Source: Lachnospiraceae bacterium (GTDB lineage: Bacteria; Bacillota; Clostridia; Lachnospirales; Lachnospiraceae). Taken from it: a DNA stretch of 9,778 nucleotides. Under the pieces are notes generated by a model. It saw only the letters and a list, made by a program, of their open reading frames with translations. It had not been told where the DNA came from and made no database searches. Position 1 is the first letter of the stretch. Every line of letters begins with the position of its first letter. Below, piece by piece: positions 1 through 9,778 of the stretch. The stretch is from positions 1 through 9,778 of the forward strand of contig JAJQIE010000180.1 of NCBI GenBank assembly GCA_021199395.1, given 5' to 3'. Both the position numbers and the translations under genes were made by a program.

Positions 1-1021
1 CATGATGAACCTCATACCAGTTTACACCGGCATTCACCAGAGAATAATAGCTTTCTTTTCCACGGATACGCATCTCCATGCCGATATTCCGCTTTACCAT
101 ATCCCGACCGCCAAAAATAATCTCCCGGATCGAAGTTATCCCGGCCCGTTCCATTGCGGCAAAGCAGGCTCCCTTGGAATAGAGATTCATGCCCTGATAC
201 GCGCGGCGGCGACAGCACAAAAACTGTATGGAGCGTACCGCCCAGCTTTTGTTGAAATAATCCCCCATCAGGTAGCTGACTGACACGGTACGGCGCTCAA
301 ACACCTTTTTAAGAAGCTCGAAAAATAGCCGATCCTTTTCTTTGTCCCAGTCCTCCTGTGAGCGCCCCGCGCGAACCTCATCGTTCATAGGCTGCCGCGC
401 GATCCGATCCACATGGGCGATCGCTGGCTTTGTCGAATAATCAATATGCAGGACATACCCCGCTATCGCTTCGTCTTCATATGTGATCAGCGCCACATCC
501 TGCATCCAGAGCTCTTTTTTCTGATTGACCGTATAGTAATAAAAAGACGAAAGATAATCCTGCACATAGATATGCTTCCGGTCTACGCCCAGCCGCAGCA
601 GAGCTCCCACAAGTACCTGATTCAGTTCCTCCGTCAGACGGCGAACCGTAATCATCACATGAAGAGTGGTATTCGAAGTCAGCAGCTTCAGATCCGCGAT
701 ACACTGGTTCAGATAGACCGCCAGCAGATCTTCCGGTTCGAATACCATATCCCCGCTTAGGATCGTCTCCCGGCGTTCAATTTTCCCATATACATCTGAG
801 ATCCGGTGAAGATCTCCGCTTTCGCCCTCGGTCGCGGGAGAGCCGTCCCAAAGGCTCCATGCCCCGTTTTCCTCCTGCCGCAGTCCGGTCGCAAACTGGC
901 GCGCATTTTCCTCCGCCCCGATCGTCACAGGTTCCCTGGACGATGAATGCCAGTAAGTCACCTGCGCATAGTCTGAATTCAGATCGATCCCCAGAATCAG
1001 TTCATTTGTAGCCTGTATCAT
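1..1021 (-). CDS. DUF5716-type, Hsp70/actin-like (ASKHA) protein, C-terminus beyond window
   Basis: The frame is open for 340 codons from ATG 1021 to the window edge, so the C-terminus is missing. An SD-like AAGGGTG ends 9 nt before the ATG. The gene begins 14 nt after the stop of the DUF5717-type gene, which implies one operon. Seen: residues 9-24 (ILGIDLNSDYAQVTYW) resemble the phosphate-1 strand-turn of actin/Hsp70-fold ATPases. Residues 121-160 (HVMITVRRL, then a helix and VDRKHIYVQDYLSSF) resemble the Hsp70 stretch that follows it. Residues 247-290 (VSYLMGDYF, then QGMNLYSKGAC) look like an adenosine-motif region. No clear DLGGG-type phosphate-2 motif is visible. Family knowledge: I recognise it as DUF5716, which commonly sits beside DUF5717 in Lachnospiraceae. 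There is no signal peptide or membrane segment, so it should be cytoplasmic. Inference: a nucleotide-dependent switch or chaperone-like partner of its neighbour. Function unknown. Confidence 0.85.
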   Translation of the reverse strand, partial: MIQATNELILGIDLNSDYAQVTYWHSSSREPVTIGAEENARQFATGLRQEENGAWSLWDGSPATEGESGDLHRISDVYGKIERRETILSGDMVFEPEDLLAVYLNQCIADLKLLTSNTTLHVMITVRRLTEELNQVLVGALLRLGVDRKHIYVQDYLSSFYYYTVNQKKELWMQDVALITYEDEAIAGYVLHIDYSTKPAIAHVDRIARQPMNDEVRAGRSQEDWDKEKDRLFFELLKKVFERRTVSVSYLMGDYFNKSWAVRSIQFLCCRRRAYQGMNLYSKGACFAAMERAGITSIREIIFGGRDMVKRNIGMEMRIRGKESYYSLVNAGVNWYEVHH

Positions 1022-1035
1022 AGTTTGCTTCACCC

Positions 1036-4000
1036 TTATACTAATGTAAACACTTCATCCGCAAGATATTCAAATGTCAGCCAGGAATCCAGCGCCTCCT
1101 CCGCCTCCGCTTCGTTTTTATCCTGTAAAGCGCGGCAAAATCGATTCAGCAGACCATACATTCCGGCAGCTTCATCCTCCTGCTCGGCTCTGAGCGTCCA
1201 TTTGCCGGAACAGATTTTATCCTGCCCATTGTCCTCAACAAAGCTGCACTCAATCTCCTCCCCGGCGAAAAGAGTAAATTCCCTCACAAAGATGCCCTCA
1301 AAGCAGTTCGGCACCACTTCCCTGACGTATCCGGCTTCCGCCGCAGGTTCCTCCGGGCAGCCCTGCTCCCGGCCCCCCTGCACCGGTACGCCTGCCACGG
1401 GCGTTTTCTGTGCATCCGGGACATCTGACTTTGTCTGCCCCCTGTACCTGTAAAAAATATATACGGTGCTCCCCGGATTACCGACATACTCCGCAAACAC
1501 ATGTCCCTGCATCTGCCACGGCTTCAGCAATTCCCGGTCAAAGCGTTTAAAGAAAGCGAACCGCATCCCTTTTGTATTAAATTCCTCAAGCATTTCTTCC
1601 GCAAATACGCGCTGGGTCTTTGTCAGAGACACAGCTCTCGCGTAATGCTGAAGAAGCGCCAGCCTGCATACCTCTTCCTGCTCCGAAATACGGTTCAGCC
1701 CGCTAAGACGCCTGTACTCATTTTCAATAAACAGGAACACGGAATCCGCCACCGGAAGTCCCTTTACAAAGTATTCCCAGGATTTCAGGTTCACATAGGC
1801 TCTGCAGAGCTTTTTCCGCCCCATCTTTTTCCAGTATGCTTCAAAGATCATTTCCGAGCCCTCTGTGCCGCGCCGTGTAAACAGCATCAGCATGAGGATT
1901 TTCTCTTCGAGCAGCATGGTGTCCAGCTCAAATTCACAGGCGGCTGTCCATACCTGCTTCATATCCTCCACGGAGCCCTCATAATAAAGGATCAGGTAAC
2001 GCAGCAGCTTATCATCGTATTTTCCATTCGCAAAGCACCAGTGGCAGAGGGACAGCAGCATCGCGTTCTCCTCAAATTCCAGCTCCAGAACCATACGGCT
2101 GCAAATGCGAACCAGCTGAAGCAGAGGAATATCCTCCGCGCCATAGGTATTCAGCAAAGCGAAGGCTTCTGTGCATCTGCCCTCCTCCGCAAGCAGGGTG
2201 ATCAGCGCTGCCTTATCCGCCAGGGCATACTCTTCACAGGAGATTCTTTCAAGAAATTCCGGAAGAGAATCCTCCCTCGGATGCGCCATATACCACGCAA
2301 GCACCACCCGGCGCAGCTCATCCCGAAAATCGGCAGAAATTTCTCCAAGCTCGCAGCCCGTGCAAAAATATGGGAGCAGCTTATCGTTCATGAGGTTTGC
2401 TTTCAGGCTCTCCACACAGAGGAAAACCACAAGCCCCGGATGATCGGGCGCTTTTTTTGCGCACCAGGCAAGCAGCTTTTCATCCTCGAATACCCGCTCC
2501 ATCCGACAGAAAACGGAAGCCTCATAGCGCTGTCCCTTTGCGTCCACCGCGAACACTGCTCCATCCGGATCATAAAGACGGATCTGGCATCTGCCATTTA
2601 CTAAATTTACAGTCTCTTCACCCGGCATACGCACAGAGCGCACTGCGATCTGACGGATCCCCGGACAGTCGCAGGTAATCTCATACGTAAACAGAAGCCG
2701 GATCAGTCTGTGCGCAAGCGGGACGGTAATCATGGCTTCCCGCAAAAATCCCCGGTAAAGCACAGCCAGGTCGTCTGAGATATGTCCGCTCTCCAGCTGT
2801 TCCATCACAAACCGCTCCATCGCCGACCGATGGTTGTGCCAGGTCTGAGGGTCACTCTCCCGGTTATCCAATATGCTCCGGTACAGAGCCGCTCGTCTGC
2901 GGTAATCGAGGGATGTGTCATATACGAAATACATACGGATGATCTGTGGAAGATCTCTGAAAACCACAGTCTCCATTGTCTGCATATAAGCTTCATAAAG
3001 CCCATTCATCCGGAAACCGTTTTCTACTCCCCGCGCATACCACTCAAAATATAAGCTGTCCTTTTTTTCACCGCGAATCAGAATCTGGCAGATGGCCTTT
3101 ACCAGATCGTCGGAGGGATAGAGACGCCAGCCATGTGTAAGGGTATCATACAGACGCTGGTCAAATACGGACTGGTGCATGGCCAGATTCGCCACCTGGC
3201 GGAGAATCTCCGCAGTCATCACCTTTTCCTCATCCGCAAAACGCAGTAAATGAAGCTCATATTCCCCAAGATGGCGCAATAAAAACGGATTCGCTTTCAG
3301 CGCCTGCCATGCTTCTACATAGAGAATCCGACTGCGGCAGCCGCTCCGGAACTGCTCCGCCACCGCTTCATAGCGCGAATCCGGAGCGTTTAAAAATTTT
3401 TCCTGGAGATACAGAAGAATCCACTGCAAAGGCCAGCTTGCCGGATTGCGGTAAAACTCCCTGCAGACCTCTTCCTCTACGCGGTCCACATAAGAAATCT
3501 CCTGATAAAAAAATGTCGTAATATAAAGATAGAAGCAATAGCGCTCCGGAGTATCGAGTCTCTCCTTTTGCGCTTCTATCTGTTCCAGCAGCCTGGAGGC
3601 TTTGTGCTTCTTGTCATCCGCAAAATACATCTGTACCAGAAAGAGATCTGCAAAAGGATCGTCCCCACCGGCTCGCTTATAGCTGTTTATCACACTGATG
3701 GAATGCTCGATCCAGGTCGGCAGATCCGTTTTCTGCAGGCGAAAACTGACGTACAGATTCTCCAGCTTTTTTATCATAATTTTCCGGATATGAGCCTGAT
3801 GATCTCTCCCCCACAGCGCTTTCTTTTTCGCGGTCAGCGAGATCAGCAGAGTCTGCCGGCCCGCAGTCAGCGTCAGTCTCGCGTAGTTGTTTCCCGCGTG
3901 CATCAGATTTGTATCCAGAATCAGATTCAGGTCAAAGGTGCTCCCCACAAAATCATCGGTCGTAAACTGCCAGCGCTCCGGGCGCACAAAAAGAGCGTCG

Positions 4001-4743
4001 GATTCCACCGATATCGTCTGAAACCCCCATGTGCTTTTTCTCAGGCGAACCGTTTCCTGCACCGGCTCGTTCAGCTCGCCATAATCCAGTTCAACAGCCG
4101 TCGGCTCTCCCGCATTTTCCGTATCCGTTCTGCGCGGCTTCCCGCCCTCAGGATTCTCTTTCACAAAAGAAAAAAGCAGAGCGTCCTTCTGCCCGGCTCC
4201 GACCAGGAATTCCTCCATGCCGCTGCAGCCCGCATCCGGAACACCCAGGCCCTCATAGAGCGCGAGAAGCTCCGGCTCTCCCTTTAACAATACCCGAAAT
4301 CCGGGCGACAGAAAATACCGGTACGCCCTCTGGTAATCTGCCTCAGCCAGCCGGGTAAACTCCGCGGGTGTCGAGAAGGGCAGCTTCTCCTCCTCCATCC
4401 CCGACGCCACGCTCACAGTATAAGGGATCTCATCCTCTCCGCAGTCGCTGCATACAACAATCCTGCCGCTGCTGACCGCCCCCGCTTTCAGGCCGCTGCA
4501 GTCAAATTGATAGTGGATCTCATTCGAAATACCATGAAACTCCACCGGGTCACAGATCATCCGCGCGTCAGAAGGATACAAAAATCCATGCACCCGCTGA
4601 CCGTCCGTTCCCTCCAGAAAAAGCTTTCCGCGAAGCACCGAACCGACGGACGCTTTCAGCTCCAGTTCGTCCGGCCTGGCCACAAGACGTCCCTGTTCGT
4701 ATTCAAATATTCCGTTTAATAATTGTTCAATTCGTCTTCTCAA
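1036..4743 (-). CDS. DUF5717-type large protein: Ig-like domains plus long helical-repeat region
   Basis: The protein has 1235 residues from the proposed TTG start. The frame stays open upstream to an ATG at 4824, but I chose TTG 4743: AGGTGG lies 6 nt before it, a good promoter lies between the two candidates, and the protein then opens MRRRIEQLLNGIFEYEQG, as I recall for the family. Layout: residues about 25-112 look like an Ig-like beta-sandwich (ELKASVGSVLRGKLFLEG, later FDCSGLKAGAVSSGRIVV). Residues about 232-305 look like a second one (LILDTNLMHAGNNYARLTL). About 325-1000 is helical and TPR-like, rich in aromatic/leucine helix pairs. About 1020-1235 is a beta-rich C-terminal region interrupted by a proline/glycine/glutamate-rich linker. 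No signal peptide or membrane helix is visible, so it is probably cytoplasmic. It is the first gene of an operon with the DUF5716-type gene. Inference: a scaffold for that ATPase-like partner. The biochemical role is unknown, and the domain labels rest on residue pattern only. Confidence 0.88.
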   Translation of the reverse strand: MRRRIEQLLNGIFEYEQGRLVARPDELELKASVGSVLRGKLFLEGTDGQRVHGFLYPSDARMICDPVEFHGISNEIHYQFDCSGLKAGAVSSGRIVVCSDCGEDEIPYTVSVASGMEEEKLPFSTPAEFTRLAEADYQRAYRYFLSPGFRVLLKGEPELLALYEGLGVPDAGCSGMEEFLVGAGQKDALLFSFVKENPEGGKPRRTDTENAGEPTAVELDYGELNEPVQETVRLRKSTWGFQTISVESDALFVRPERWQFTTDDFVGSTFDLNLILDTNLMHAGNNYARLTLTAGRQTLLISLTAKKKALWGRDHQAHIRKIMIKKLENLYVSFRLQKTDLPTWIEHSISVINSYKRAGGDDPFADLFLVQMYFADDKKHKASRLLEQIEAQKERLDTPERYCFYLYITTFFYQEISYVDRVEEEVCREFYRNPASWPLQWILLYLQEKFLNAPDSRYEAVAEQFRSGCRSRILYVEAWQALKANPFLLRHLGEYELHLLRFADEEKVMTAEILRQVANLAMHQSVFDQRLYDTLTHGWRLYPSDDLVKAICQILIRGEKKDSLYFEWYARGVENGFRMNGLYEAYMQTMETVVFRDLPQIIRMYFVYDTSLDYRRRAALYRSILDNRESDPQTWHNHRSAMERFVMEQLESGHISDDLAVLYRGFLREAMITVPLAHRLIRLLFTYEITCDCPGIRQIAVRSVRMPGEETVNLVNGRCQIRLYDPDGAVFAVDAKGQRYEASVFCRMERVFEDEKLLAWCAKKAPDHPGLVVFLCVESLKANLMNDKLLPYFCTGCELGEISADFRDELRRVVLAWYMAHPREDSLPEFLERISCEEYALADKAALITLLAEEGRCTEAFALLNTYGAEDIPLLQLVRICSRMVLELEFEENAMLLSLCHWCFANGKYDDKLLRYLILYYEGSVEDMKQVWTAACEFELDTMLLEEKILMLMLFTRRGTEGSEMIFEAYWKKMGRKKLCRAYVNLKSWEYFVKGLPVADSVFLFIENEYRRLSGLNRISEQEEVCRLALLQHYARAVSLTKTQRVFAEEMLEEFNTKGMRFAFFKRFDRELLKPWQMQGHVFAEYVGNPGSTVYIFYRYRGQTKSDVPDAQKTPVAGVPVQGGREQGCPEEPAAEAGYVREVVPNCFEGIFVREFTLFAGEEIECSFVEDNGQDKICSGKWTLRAEQEDEAAGMYGLLNRFCRALQDKNEAEAEEALDSWLTFEYLADEVFTLV

Positions 4744-4749
4744 CCTATT

Positions 4750-4755
4750 CCACCT
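4750..4755 (-). promoter_or_regulatory. Shine-Dalgarno AGGTGG that fixes a TTG start
   Basis: AGGTGG stands 6 nt before TTG 4743 of the DUF5717-type gene. It lies downstream of the predicted transcription start, whereas the upstream ATG at 4824 would not be on that transcript. Confidence 0.65.
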
Positions 4756-5038
4756 ATCCCAGAGTCTCAGCACATGGCTTCTTCCTACAGACCAGAATAG
4801 TATAGCACCGAATCCATTCTTCATGCAACCATTTCTCTTCCATCGCTGAAAAAGAAAAAGGGAAGCCGGAAGGATGCCATTGCAGGATCGTTGCCTTTGA
4901 CGACAGCCCCTTTTTGTTTAACAGTTTTTTGCAGGCAGCCGTATTTTTCTCCGGAGTATTCACCGTTAATTTTTTGTAGTTGCTCTTTCCGGCACAGGTA
5001 AACGCTTTGTCTCCGACCGTTTTGGATGTCAGCTTCAC
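4754..5038 (-). pseudogene. Remnant of a BspA-like LRR_5 surface protein (C-terminal piece)
   Basis: The frame from GTG 5038 reads KLTSKTVGDKAFTCAG, then NYKKLTVNTPEKNTAACKKL, then NKKGLSSKATI, over about 51 codons (5038-4886). This matches the usual ending of BspA-like leucine-rich (LRR_5/LRR_6) proteins of gut Firmicutes: a VGxKAF repeat, a short strand, then an AYKKLLKKKGL-type helix. No SD precedes GTG 5038, and a TGA lies in frame two codons upstream. After SSKATI the frame runs into an unrelated hydrophobic and basic tail that overlaps the next gene's promoter and stops at 4754. No signal peptide or repeat array is present. I read it as the decayed end of a secreted protein gene. A chance short ORF is possible, but the match to the family's ending is specific. 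Confidence 0.45.
4799..4828 (-). promoter_or_regulatory. Sigma-A-type promoter of the DUF5717/DUF5716 operon
   Basis: The -35 is TTGCAT (4828-4823), the spacer is 18 nt, and the -10 is TATACT (4804-4799) preceded by TGC, giving an extended -10 (TGCTATACT). The start of transcription should be near 4792, leaving a leader of about 50 nt before the TTG at 4743. The promoter is embedded in the open frame that continues from the upstream LRR remnant. Confidence 0.62.
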
Positions 5039-5249
5039 TGATTTTATCGTTCATCAGAAAGCTCTGGTGCCCCTGACCGACAGACGCATCCACGTAGCCC
5101 TCGTAGCCCGTGACAATATAAAGATCCCATTCGTCTCCTGTTCTTCCCTTATGCCTTCTTATGCATTGATAAATTTTCGTACTCTCCCTGTCTCAAACCG
5201 ATTCTGACGCGGTACCGGTCTGTGCCGGAGCAGCATAACACTATGTCCG
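5039..5249 (-). other. Apparently decayed coding sequence upstream of the LRR remnant
   Basis: No intact gene is visible. One frame is open from 5192 (after a TGA at 5195-5193) and reads GDEWDLYIVTGYEGYVDASV, then GQGHQSFLMND, which has a protein-like composition. It sits in a different frame from the LRR_5 tail, as expected if frameshifts broke one ancestral gene. Another frame begins ATG CAT AAG AAG GCA TAA after GGGAGAG (near 5175), a four-codon stub. I cannot assign a family. A transglutaminase-like ending (xxYFLxxD) crossed my mind but is too weak to claim. A promoter-like sequence lies just upstream. Positions 5279-5383 show nothing recognisable. Confidence 0.3.
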
Positions 5250-5278
5250 ATTTTAGCACGAAACATTCATAAATGCAA
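5250..5278 (-). promoter_or_regulatory. Sigma-A-type promoter in front of a decayed locus
   Basis: The -35 is TTGCAT (5278-5273), the spacer is 17 nt, and the -10 is TAAAAT (5255-5250) preceded by TGC (extended -10). Transcription would start near 5243 and enter the remnant at 5192-4754, where no intact gene is visible. It may be a relic promoter or may express a short RNA. Confidence 0.5.
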
Positions 5279-5383
5279 AACATAATAACTGTGATGGCAG
5301 GGTTGAATAAGAGGATGTGACCTGAAACAAGAGGATTGAAAGGACGAAAAAGATTCCTGCTCTGAGGAAAGAAAAGAATTTTA

Positions 5384-5435
5384 AAAGGCACTTATGCAAG
5401 CCTGTTGTGAACAATAAGACTGCATAAATGCCTTT
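5384..5435 (-). terminator. Hairpin terminator downstream of tRNA-Glu
   Basis: In the minus-strand RNA, AAAGGCATTTATGCA (5435-5421) pairs with TGCATAAGTGCCTTT (5398-5384): 15 bp with a single U-G wobble and a 22-nt loop, followed by TAAAATTCTTTTC. The odd pair is a wobble only on the minus strand (it is C-A on the plus strand), which agrees with selection for a minus-strand RNA. The U tract is broken and the loop is long, so efficiency is uncertain. Confidence 0.6.
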
Positions 5436-5445
5436 CAATAAAAAA

Positions 5446-5517
5446 TAGTCCCTAGGGGAATCGAACCCCTGTTTCCGCCGTGAGAGGGCGGCGTCTTAAC
5501 CGCTTGACCAAGGAACC
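5446..5517 (-). tRNA. tRNA-Glu, anticodon CTC
   Basis: A complete 72-nt cloverleaf can be read on the minus strand. The acceptor is GGTTCCT/AGGGACT (pairs 1-72 and 4-69 are G-U wobbles). The D arm is GTC/GAC around AAGCGGTTAA. The anticodon stem is CCGCC/GGCGG around the loop CTCTCAC, which places CTC at 5484-5482. The variable loop is short, the T arm is AGGGG/CCCCT around TTCGATT, and the discriminator is A. The tRNA therefore reads GAG codons. CCA is not encoded and must be added after transcription. It stands alone, with its own promoter and a downstream hairpin, and is not part of a tRNA cluster. Confidence 0.96.
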
Positions 5518-5527
5518 ATGCTTGAGT

Positions 5528-5556
5528 ATTATAACCTGACCTTCCCAAAATTGCAA
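5528..5556 (-). promoter_or_regulatory. Strong sigma-A-type promoter of the tRNA-Glu gene
   Basis: The -35 is TTGCAA (5556-5551), the spacer is 17 nt, and the -10 is a perfect TATAAT (5533-5528), 10 nt before the mature 5' end. The upstream side (about 5557-5585) is rich in A and T runs, like an UP element. The start near 5521 leaves a very short 5' leader. Confidence 0.85.
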
Positions 5557-5669
5557 GTGTTTTTTTCATTTTTTTGAATTTCGGAATTTGATGAAAAATA
5601 TGCCATTTTGTCAGATATTTTCAAGATACAGCATCCGTTTTCTGTTATTTTACAGTCCGGTCGAATGCC

Positions 5670-5727
5670 GACGCAGGCTATGCCATAAGGAATACCGGCT
5701 CATCCGTGGATTCCTTATGGCTGCGTC
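5670..5727. repeat. Bulged 18-bp palindrome downstream of the M32 gene
   Basis: GCCATAAGGAAT (5682-5693) and ATTCCTTATGGC (5710-5721) are perfectly complementary. After a 6-nt bulge (5676-5681) the stem continues with GACGCA (5670-5675) against TGCGTC (5722-5727). The loop is 16 nt. No U run follows on either strand, so it does not look like a standard intrinsic terminator. It shares the pattern ATTCCTTA…GC…TGCG (minus strand) with the palindrome at 9010-9061, which suggests one family of dispersed palindromes. The rest of 5518-5811 holds the tRNA promoter, the tandem repeat and no gene. Confidence 0.6.
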
Positions 5728-5772
5728 CATCTGCTGCCAATCCCGCTTTAAAAAGCAGCACTCTTTTTTACC

Positions 5773-5808
5773 CGCATAAACCCAGACAGGCGCATAAACC
5801 CAGACAGG
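5773..5808. repeat. Perfect 18-bp tandem duplication
   Basis: CGCATAAACCCAGACAGG occurs twice in a row (5773-5790 and 5791-5808) without a mismatch, ending 3 nt from the stop codon of the M32 gene (5814-5812). It is non-coding, in the 3' untranslated part of that transcript. Likely a slippage or short duplication event. Confidence 0.9.
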
Positions 5809-5811
5809 CTT

Positions 5812-7317
5812 TTACCGTTTAAAGCCATACAGTTCTGAGTATTTTCTGTTAAAATAATCCAGCAGCGGGCGGGCGGTGAGCTCCCGGCCACAGACGCGCT
5901 GTAATACTTCCGCGGATGTATAGAGACTTCCGTAGCGATGAATCTTTTTGTTCAGCCATTCGGTAATCTCACCGATGCGCCCCTCTTCGAGAATTGTATC
6001 TACGCTGCCCATCTCGTCTTCCAGTGCCTCAAGAAACATGCCATCGTACATGGAGCCGAGCAGATAGGAAGGAAAATATCCAAAGGAGCCGTCCGACCAG
6101 TGCATATCCTGAAGGATTCCCTCCCCGTCATTTTCCGGCCGGATACCGAGCAGCTCCTCCATCCAGTCATTCCAGAGCCGCGGAAGCTGATCGACCGGAA
6201 CATTTTCACGGAAGATTGCTTTTTCCATCTCGTAACGCAATATAATGTGCAGACAATAAGTCACCTCATCCGCCTCCGTACGGATCATGCTTGGGTGTAC
6301 ATCATTGATCGCGCGGCAGAAGGTATCCAGCGGAATCCTTCTGAACTGCGGCAAAAGCTCGCCGAGCCGGTCATAGATCGGCGTCCAGAAGCTGCGGCGG
6401 CGCCCCAGAATGTTTTCATAAAAACGCGACTGACTCTCATGAAGTCCCATCAGCTCCACTTTTTCAGCAGCGGTATTTTCGTAGGCCGGGTCAATACTCT
6501 GCCCGAAGATTGCATGTCCGCCCTCATGGATAGCGCTGAACATCGCGGAAAGCGGGTCGTCTTCTTTATAATGGTTCGTCACACGGACATCACCGATACA
6601 CAGATCCAGTGTAAACGGGTGCTCACTCTCGGCAGTCGCTCCTGCATCCGCGTCAAAGCCAATGTATCGGAGCAGCATGTCCTGCACCTTTTTCTGGGCA
6701 TTGATATCATAGCTCCCTTCAAGCGCGCGAAGATCCGGTTTCGGACTTTCCTCTATCTTTTTCAGCAGAGGAGGCAATTCCTCCTTCAGCTCGTCAAAAA
6801 CGCGGTCTATCGTAGCGCTATCCATTCCTTCCTCATATAATCCCAGCAGCACATCATAAGGATCCTCGTCCGGCTCCATATAATGCACATATTCCTTTGT
6901 CATGGAAATCACCTTCTCCAGATGCGGGGCAAATTCCGAAAAATCCGAGCTGCGTTTCGCTTTCTCCCATGCTTTTTCAGAACGTGTCTTCGCTTCTGTA
7001 TAGGAAGTGTAAAAATCCTCCGGGATGCGCTTAAAGCGCTCATAATCCCGCAGATAGCGTTTTACCGTAAGCTGCATCGCCGCGTCAAGCGTATCAAACT
7101 GCTCCGGTTCGGACAACTCTCTGAGCATTTCCCCAAGCTCATCCGAGGTGGAAAGCCGGAACTGCTCAGTCGAAAAATAATTGATCGCACCAACGCGCGT
7201 CTCCATGCCTTTTTCCGGTGCCATAGTATTCATATCCCAGTAAAGCAGAGAAAGCACATGCTCGTACTGGCGCATTTTGCCCAGATATGCTTTTAATTGA
7301 TCCAGTGTATGATTCAT
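5812..7317 (-). CDS. M32 family metallocarboxypeptidase (Taq carboxypeptidase type)
   Basis: The protein has 501 residues, the normal size for peptidase family M32 (zinc or cobalt carboxypeptidases that remove C-terminal residues from peptides in the cytoplasm). Visible motifs in order: HEGGH at 264-268 (HExxH metal site and catalytic Glu265), HESQSR at 293-298 (Glu294 as third metal ligand), IRTEADEVTY at 345-354, and GILQDMHW at 400-407. All are M32 hallmarks. There is no signal peptide. Start: ATG 7317 follows GAGGAGG by 5 nt. The frame is open further up (ATG 7392 and beyond), but those codons lie in or before the promoter, so they should not be translated. The downstream side lacks an obvious U-tract terminator. 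It follows the D-Ala-D-Ala carboxypeptidase by 170 nt with its own promoter, so joint function is not implied. Likely role: peptide turnover. Confidence 0.96.
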   Translation of the reverse strand: MNHTLDQLKAYLGKMRQYEHVLSLLYWDMNTMAPEKGMETRVGAINYFSTEQFRLSTSDELGEMLRELSEPEQFDTLDAAMQLTVKRYLRDYERFKRIPEDFYTSYTEAKTRSEKAWEKAKRSSDFSEFAPHLEKVISMTKEYVHYMEPDEDPYDVLLGLYEEGMDSATIDRVFDELKEELPPLLKKIEESPKPDLRALEGSYDINAQKKVQDMLLRYIGFDADAGATAESEHPFTLDLCIGDVRVTNHYKEDDPLSAMFSAIHEGGHAIFGQSIDPAYENTAAEKVELMGLHESQSRFYENILGRRRSFWTPIYDRLGELLPQFRRIPLDTFCRAINDVHPSMIRTEADEVTYCLHIILRYEMEKAIFRENVPVDQLPRLWNDWMEELLGIRPENDGEGILQDMHWSDGSFGYFPSYLLGSMYDGMFLEALEDEMGSVDTILEEGRIGEITEWLNKKIHRYGSLYTSAEVLQRVCGRELTARPLLDYFNRKYSELYGFKR

Positions 7318-9134: not shown

Positions 9135-9778
9135 TCAGTAGCTTACCACCTTTGTCCCAATCGGAATATTATCATAAATCCACTTTGCATTCGTAAGCGA
9201 GAGACGCACACAGCCATGAGACGCGTTTGTACCCAGTCCGCTTTCCTGAATGCTCGTCATACTTCCCGAATTATACAGGATCGAATGGAACAGATAATTC
9301 CCGTAAAACTGCGTATAATACCAGCAGGTATAACCGCTGCCAAATGCCAGTCCTTTTGACAGCACAGTAAAGGTACCCTTTACCGTTGGGCTGGAAGACT
9401 TACCGGTCGCGCAGACCCAATAATACTTCAGCGTCCAGTTCCCCTCTGAGCCATAGAAAATACCTACCCTGTTTGTTGACGAGTTGACCAGTATCATCCA
9501 GTTCGTACTGCTTGAATAAGACTGCGCCTTGGAAATCATGGCTACAGCGCTGGTCTCCACAGACGCCGTCAGCTTTCCATTGCTGTCCACATAACCATAT
9601 CCTTCGGATGAGGAGCCCGCCACACAGCTGGTCTGCAGGACGCCCTTGCTGTTGAAATAGTAGGTCGAACCGTCAATCTTCACCCATCCGGTCTGCAATT
9701 TTCCTTCAGATGAGAAATAATAGGTATTACTGTCTATCGTTGCTTTCTGCCAGCCGGTCACAGCCGATCCCTTTACAC
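9135..9778 (-). CDS. L,D-transpeptidase (YkuD) with cell-wall-binding repeats, N-terminus beyond window
   Basis: The frame is open from the window edge to TGA 9137-9135, so only the last 214 residues are seen. A GTG at 9761 is an internal Val codon, not a start. First come choline-binding-type repeats (CW_binding_1), TGWQKATIDSNTYYFSSEG and TGWVKIDGSTYYFNSKG, plus a more degenerate third (about 9775-9560). Then comes a YkuD catalytic domain (about 9512-9135). The active-site motif SHGCVRL has its Cys at codon 9212-9210, with the upstream YLFHS strand and the family ending IPIGTKVV. The enzyme acts outside the membrane, using tetrapeptide donors to form 3-3 cross-links or attach proteins. The repeats would hold it to the wall. 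A signal peptide is expected but lies outside. Downstream is a structured spacer with a terminator, then the D,D-carboxypeptidase gene that makes its substrate. Confidence 0.95.
   Translation of the reverse strand, partial: VKGSAVTGWQKATIDSNTYYFSSEGKLQTGWVKIDGSTYYFNSKGVLQTSCVAGSSSEGYGYVDSNGKLTASVETSAVAMISKAQSYSSSTNWMILVNSSTNRVGIFYGSEGNWTLKYYWVCATGKSSSPTVKGTFTVLSKGLAFGSGYTCWYYTQFYGNYLFHSILYNSGSMTSIQESGLGTNASHGCVRLSLTNAKWIYDNIPIGTKVVSY

Follow-up and report, generated by a model that had tools for sequence, protein, structure and literature searches.

The window analysed here, a stretch of 9,778 nucleotides that forms one contig of a Lachnospiraceae draft genome (contig C294 of genome G000, 71.6% complete), carries on its reverse strand two adjacent genes whose products belong to DUF5717 and DUF5716, two families for which our literature searches found no function (they gave no paper for DUF5717 and, for DUF5716, a single one on cancer drugs). 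The first gene encodes a giant protein that is matched over cut-off by PF18984 and PF18983 (E 1.6e-220 and 1.5e-78, Pfam scan of the window) and whose N-terminus agrees with the homologue consensus M-K-x-R-I-E-Q-L-L-N-G except at residue 2. A gap of 14 nt, reported in the original prediction and confirmed in the sequence, separates it from a DUF5716 gene (PF18980, E 8.8e-65, over cut-off) that runs off the contig; full-length relatives, among those listed, mostly have about 415-440 residues. The elements of the locus are as follows:

1036..4743, minus strand: DUF5717 coding sequence, TTG start, 1235 codons, stop included
1022..1035, minus strand: 14-nt spacer holding a ribosome-binding-like GGGTGA
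1..1021, minus strand: first 340 codons of the DUF5716 coding sequence, ATG at 1021, the rest cut by the contig edge
4799..4828, minus strand: weak sigma-70-like hexamers, TTGCAT at 4828-4823, 18 nt, TATACT at 4804-4799

The hexamers had been put forward as a promoter shared by the two genes. They are present, and agree with the consensus at 8 of 12 positions, which falls under the threshold of our promoter scan and is the reason why the scan did not list them; a role as shared promoter of DUF5717 and DUF5716 is unproven.

Gene content and distribution of the locus

The two genes were originally described as a two-gene operon whose members occur side by side in Lachnospiraceae. The pairing holds in 55 loci of the source family, found with two DUF5716 patterns and biased to one part of that family: in every one of them DUF5716 is directly preceded, on its own strand, by DUF5717. 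The gene count has to be raised, as in all 54 loci that offer enough sequence the next gene after DUF5716 is a homologue of a tetratricopeptide repeat (TPR)-type gene, so that the operon comprises at least three genes, DUF5717-DUF5716-TPR. Fifty-two of these homologues passed our filter and two were added (L025 and L056, where the frames overlap DUF5716 beyond the filter limit), while L033 was excluded as too short. As a check, the first 20 DUF5716_C matches in the table for the 299 family genomes described below were compared by eye with the DUF5717 matches; in all 20 the DUF5717 domain shares contig and strand with DUF5716_C and lies upstream of it by 349-524 nt. The source genome itself has a second contig (C20) that opens with a piece matching DUF5716_C positions 240-294 (C20:6-170), followed by a TPR-type gene at 224-1081 (TPR_1 E 0.0013, below the Pfam cut-off) and by genes which we take to be purF-, purB- and purA-like; the two contigs were kept separate and not joined. 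The flanks of the 55 loci recur as well, with genes that, by recognition of their sequences, are presumably nrdR-like upstream (32 loci) and purF-, purB- and purA-like downstream (29, 36 and 33 loci).

Among 299 genomes of the source family, DUF5716_C is found in 293 and DUF5717 in 293, with both in 292. Neither gene was found in five of the 299 (G327, G389, G396, G426 and G522), and G318 and G444, which are 67% and 68% complete, have one gene each only. In the draft genome G307 the two genes lie on separate contigs (DUF5716 on C12, DUF5717 on C111), and G427, with 6% contamination, has two matches to each and may be a mixed bin. Eleven matching genomes in an order-level sample of 116 belong to the source family; of the 105 outside it, 48 have DUF5716_C at E up to 0.001 (44 over cut-off), and DUF5717 is present in all 48 and stands alone in three more (lists compared by eye). 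All nine DUF5716_C matches in a class-level sample of 245 fall within the source family, as do the four genomes with DUF5717 over cut-off in a phylum-level sample of 299, where G027 has a match below cut-off (6.5e-4). L086 and L087, divergent members of the family, also have the reduced set and not the larger one described below for loci outside the family. A coiled-coil gene with a hydrophobic stretch was seen near some loci (L058 at 11982-13136, L059 at 5658-6806 and L087 at 4551-5978, and the loci L062, L070 and L071 from outside the family); it lies near the TPR gene and may tether the complex to the membrane.

Predicted architecture of DUF5717 and DUF5716

The architecture of DUF5717 was taken from a predicted model of a full-length relative, with the boundaries mapped onto the window protein (all on the minus strand):

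4399..4689: Ig-like domain 1, residues 19-115, PapD-like beta sandwich
3817..4185: Ig-like domain 2, residues 187-309, PapD/HYDIN-like beta sandwich
2692..3816: helical solenoid 1, residues 310-684 (model secondary structure)
2488..2691: beta insert, residues 685-752 (model)
1513..2487: helical solenoid 2, residues 753-1077 (model)
1048..1512: C-terminal beta domain and two helices, residues 1078-1232 (model)

The model agrees with the two Ig-like stretches, helical region and beta-rich end read earlier from the sequence, and adds the small beta insert in the solenoid. In structure and profile comparison solenoid 1 matches generic solenoids only, and a sequence-profile search of the Ig domains against the PDB gave no match; among the large parts of the protein, conservation is strongest in the two solenoids. 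The predicted build is of the solenoid type and supports a scaffold-like protein, in keeping with the scaffold or adaptor role proposed originally. It differs from known proteins with PapD/ASH Ig domains (FimC, HYDIN, CEP192) in that a helical solenoid of some 700 residues, itself containing a beta insert, is joined to the Ig domains.

DUF5716 had been described as having an actin- or Hsp70-like fold. Structure prediction gives, with high confidence, an ASKHA nucleotide-binding domain (NBD) of the Hsp70 type followed by a beta substrate domain. In the window the two parts are:

128..1006, minus strand: NBD-like part, residues 6-298, ATP motifs degenerate (predicted structure and alignment)
2..127, minus strand: start of the beta substrate-domain-like part, residues 299-340 (the relative P0002 has 422 residues)

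Residues 7..422 of the model align to DnaK 2..503 over 389 residues, in the domain order of DnaK/Hsp70 (PF00012). DUF5716 differs from these proteins in having no helical lid, no ATP motifs and missing stretches in lobe II: DnaK 484-626 is without counterpart in at least 80% of 23 DUF5716 proteins, and the stretches 194-239 and 252-277 are likewise missing in at least 80% of them. We thus predict DUF5716 to be a lidless Hsp70-derived protein, consisting of an Hsp70 NBD and a beta substrate domain.

The active site was followed through 297 DUF5716 rows (288 distinct sequences; proteins shorter than 330 residues excluded) which are a part of the family, as two of the underlying searches listed the best 120 of 276 and the best 120 of 1685 proteins. 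Neither phosphate motif, G-x-D-x-GTTNS or D-x-GGGT, is kept in any of the 297, which extends to the family the lack of a clear DLGGG motif pointed out in the window protein. The column of DnaK K70 has no lysine in any row (13 rows gapped), and in 282 it holds Tyr, Leu, Phe, Trp or Met; at the phosphate-2 glycines substitutions prevail, frequently to Glu or Asp; and in the VGG motif the second glycine is replaced by Asp in 254 rows, with the first kept in 288. From these substitutions DUF5716 is a predicted pseudo-ATPase, although its cleft may still bind something.

Sister operons, ancestry and other features

Many relatives outside the family showed two adjacent DUF5716_C-matching frames in the order-level search. 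Seventeen sister loci, selected for contig room from the 48 order genomes described above, were read, and have the gene order DUF5717; Hsp70-A (554-581 residues); a coiled coil with a C-terminal GrpE domain (563-644, 279 in L062); Hsp70-B (472-542); Hsp70-C (539-555); Hsp70-D with a C-terminal vWA domain (690-735); and TPR (371-413), the last two being split in L062. The complete set of seven components occurs in 13 of the 17; L070 is without Hsp70-C and TPR, L071 is without Hsp70-C, and L067 and L072 are only partial at that place, their genomes having DUF5717 elsewhere. Pfam finds GrpE in all six coiled-coil proteins scanned (E 1.2e-10 to 3e-13) and vWA in all four Hsp70-D proteins scanned, and the D-x-S/T-G-S motif is present in each of the 14 Hsp70-D proteins longer than 600 residues. 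Hsp70-A, -B and -C terminate near DnaK 484, as DUF5716 does. Fusions seen by Pfam lie at:

L065 4495-6573 (minus), L063 3787-5862 (minus), L071 4762-6921 (minus), L070 9192-11399 (plus): Hsp70-vWA fusions
L065 9870-11804 (minus): coiled coil with C-terminal GrpE, within the Hsp70 operon

In 10 genomes searched for J-domain genes, the operon holds none; all 10 have their matches outside it. In L062 (G596:C25:33000-50000), DUF5717, Hsp70-D and TPR each consist of two open frames, as from frameshift or decay. Weak PADLOC matches to PDC-M61B on the Hsp70 part of Hsp70-C (L065 6577-8232) and of Hsp70-D (4495-6573), both on the minus strand, probably reflect the shared Hsp70 fold only. As far as our literature searches reach, this multi-Hsp70 operon is apparently undescribed.

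The D-x-GGGT motif is kept in 16 of 16 Hsp70-A, 13 of 13 Hsp70-C and 13 of 15 Hsp70-D proteins, and in none of 17 Hsp70-B. The latter keep D8 (17 of 17) and retain more glycines than DUF5716. Even so, Hsp70-B already looks like a pseudo-ATPase subunit. It is with Hsp70-B that DUF5716 clusters, apart from Hsp70-A, -C and -D, DnaK and a set of rows that we labelled HscC-like from recall (support 100/100). Closest to it is the L062 Hsp70-B, whose gene has all six other components beside it (100/100). This tree holds 56 of 95 rows after thinning, with the long rows D16_L087, D16_L086, HspB_L070 and HscClike_L083 omitted. A quick tree of 77 of the 95 rows agrees, with 22 of 23 DUF5716 in the Hsp70-B group and D16_L087 outside it on a branch of 4.97; here two of the six HscC-like rows group with DnaK itself. 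Profiles built with L062 omitted point the same way, the Hsp70-B profile being the best of four on all 55 DUF5716 proteins (median 93.6 bits vs 25.2 for Hsp70-C), and single Hsp70-B sequences outscore the neighbouring Hsp70-C on 53, 55 and 55 of the 55. In the Pfam matches Hsp70-B connects PF18980 to PF00012, and the TPR genes of the family and the sister operons are homologous (hhalign E 1.7e-19, 166 columns).

Within the flanking sequence available for the 55 family loci (a median of 6.3 kb on the upstream and 10 kb on the downstream side, less in some), no frame matches Hsp70-A, Hsp70-D or the coiled coil with GrpE; the only matches to Hsp70-C are the DUF5716 proteins themselves (28 of 55). 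A search for Hsp70 in 15 family genomes with DUF5716 returned DnaK-sized frames and others: six long extra frames group with DnaK in the quick tree, and the remainder are frames of about 340 residues, with pieces in G495. From the tree position, the motif states and these flanks, three motif-intact Hsp70s and the GrpE fusion therefore appear to have been lost from the locus in the source family, and the DUF5717-DUF5716-TPR operon likely descends from a multi-Hsp70 operon. The ATPase motifs would on this account have been shed stepwise, from the operon's Hsp70-A, -C and -D through Hsp70-B to DUF5716, a direction that we infer.

The rest of the window holds further features. An open frame at 4754-5038 (minus), just upstream of DUF5717, contains LTSKTVGDKAF...KKLTVNTPEKN...KKLLNKKGLSSKATI, which to us recalls the C-terminus of a BspA-like leucine-rich-repeat protein and is perhaps a gene remnant. 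A tRNA-Glu (ctc) lies at 5445-5518 (minus), between an M32 peptidase gene and DUF5717, with a promoter-like site at 5556-5528 (10 of 12 consensus positions). At 9135-9776 (minus) an L,D-transpeptidase (YkuD) domain follows choline-binding-type repeats in a gene cut by the contig end.

The proposed complex and its alternatives

The DUF5717-DUF5716-TPR operon likely yields a cytoplasmic complex in which the giant DUF5717 scaffold, together with the TPR protein, would hold DUF5716 in place as a clamp or adaptor that does not cycle. In the sister machine, ATP cycling of Hsp70-A, -C and -D with a built-in GrpE would power the handling of clients, and what the source family would have retained is a separable sub-complex of pseudo-Hsp70, scaffold and TPR protein that works without an ATP cycle. 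Because only these three were retained, DUF5716 likely binds without ATP-driven release; its beta domain likely holds either a fixed partner or a segment of peptide, which DUF5717 and the TPR protein would present. We favour this model as a whole by somewhat better than even. The chaperone-like character proposed originally fits the Hsp70 ancestry seen in profiles and tree, and is putative for present-day DUF5716.

Several observations count against this account. G327, G389 and G396, at least 93% complete, are without both genes, so that the system is not strictly essential. The physical complex is deduced from gene order, and peptide binding by a lidless DUF5716 is an assumption. The model deviates from whole DnaK by a root mean square distance of 6.9 A, a value large enough that the domain placement may differ from that of DnaK. 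PF18980 also matches Hsp70-C over cut-off, and one Hsp70-C sequence matched 28 of 55 DUF5716 and outscored one Hsp70-B in two of the 55, so the Hsp70-B assignment rests on the profiles and the tree. In the active site, the position of the catalytic E171 is Asp in 294 of 297 DUF5716 (a second alignment is shifted by one residue at this point), and D8 is represented by Asp in 191 rows and by Glu in 91, 282 together, so some nucleotide or metal binding is possible. These residues, together with the first VGG glycine and a modelled Hsp70-type fold with both lobes, are what speaks for DUF5716 as a working nucleotide-driven switch, as the original prediction had it, that binds and perhaps hydrolyses ATP via unusual residues and so reshapes DUF5717. 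We regard such a switch as unlikely, given the complete lack of GTTNS and GGGT, the replaced phosphate-2 and second VGG glycines, the absence of lysine at K70, the deletion of DnaK 194-239 and 252-277 in most of the 23 proteins and the lack of a GrpE-coiled-coil gene in the flanks examined. Actin-like filaments and a cytoskeletal operon, a cytoskeletal complex having also been suggested at the outset, found no support and are highly improbable: the ASKHA fold is common to actin, MreB and Hsp70, and Hsp70-A, -C and -D have matches to Pfam MreB_Mbl as well, but in the Pfam scan of the window this family gave no match to the window DUF5716 at E up to 1, the model retains the Hsp70 beta substrate domain and the tree places DUF5716 among the operon Hsp70s.

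The direction of change could also be reversed, with the three-gene set ancestral and the sister operons having gained extra Hsp70s; in its favour, operon composition varies, as L067, L070, L071 and L072 show. We consider this quite improbable, since DUF5716 is sister to the L062 Hsp70-B, which adjoins all six other components, since Hsp70-A, -C and -D each form one group with motifs intact, and since Hsp70-B keeps D8 and more glycines than DUF5716. The locus might, further, be an immunity-like conflict system, related to the GAP1-N2 systems of Kaur et al. 2020 (PMC7159879) but free of a GTPase. The neighbourhoods described there carry HSP70 and GrpE, in a subset with a second HSP70 that lacks its peptide-binding domain; fusions of FNIII proteins to DnaJ or TPR are described as well. 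The sister operons have Hsp70, GrpE, Ig-like repeats with TPR, and vWA in common with this theme. They differ from it in their four Hsp70 paralogues and in the GrpE-coiled-coil and Hsp70-vWA fusions, and no GTPase family appears in the match lists of the seven operon proteins from L065, the sole locus scanned in full (25 of 28 TPR matches are listed). PADLOC has no match for the window proteins, and the DUF5716/DUF5717 set is nearly fixed, mostly single-copy and recurrently flanked in one family, unlike the patchy GAP1-N2 and other conflict systems. A conflict role thus seems improbable to us, and the HSP70/GrpE theme, with its differing GTPase core, may best be taken as the closest published relative found.

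A further comparison is offered by the yeast Hsp70 Ssz1, which belongs to the ribosome-associated complex and can do without ATP hydrolysis. Ordinary Hsp70s score alike in the comparison; moreover, DUF5716 adjoins DUF5717 and not a Zuo1-type protein, and in the 10 genomes searched its operon is without a J-domain partner, which may be encoded elsewhere. What is new here is the reading of DUF5716 as a lidless, Hsp70-derived predicted pseudo-ATPase, the third operon gene and the likely descent from a multi-Hsp70 operon.

Lachnospiraceae are common in the gut, and the family carries this gene set almost without exception. The pseudo-Hsp70 reading, together with a locus that would be the remnant of a larger machine, makes two DUF families a testable chaperone problem, and would provide a bacterial example of the stepwise loss of ATPase motifs from an Hsp70, parallel to yeast Ssz1. 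A further lead is the operon of related families, apparently undescribed, in which Hsp70 is fused to vWA and GrpE to a coiled coil. Tentatively, and with somewhat less than even confidence, we speculate that a four-Hsp70 machine with a fused GrpE and an Hsp70-vWA protein lost its ATP engine in one bacterial family and persists there as a pseudo-Hsp70 that clamps independently of ATP on a giant of PapD/ASH domains and solenoids, which would make it a lineage-defining and unstudied proteostasis complex.
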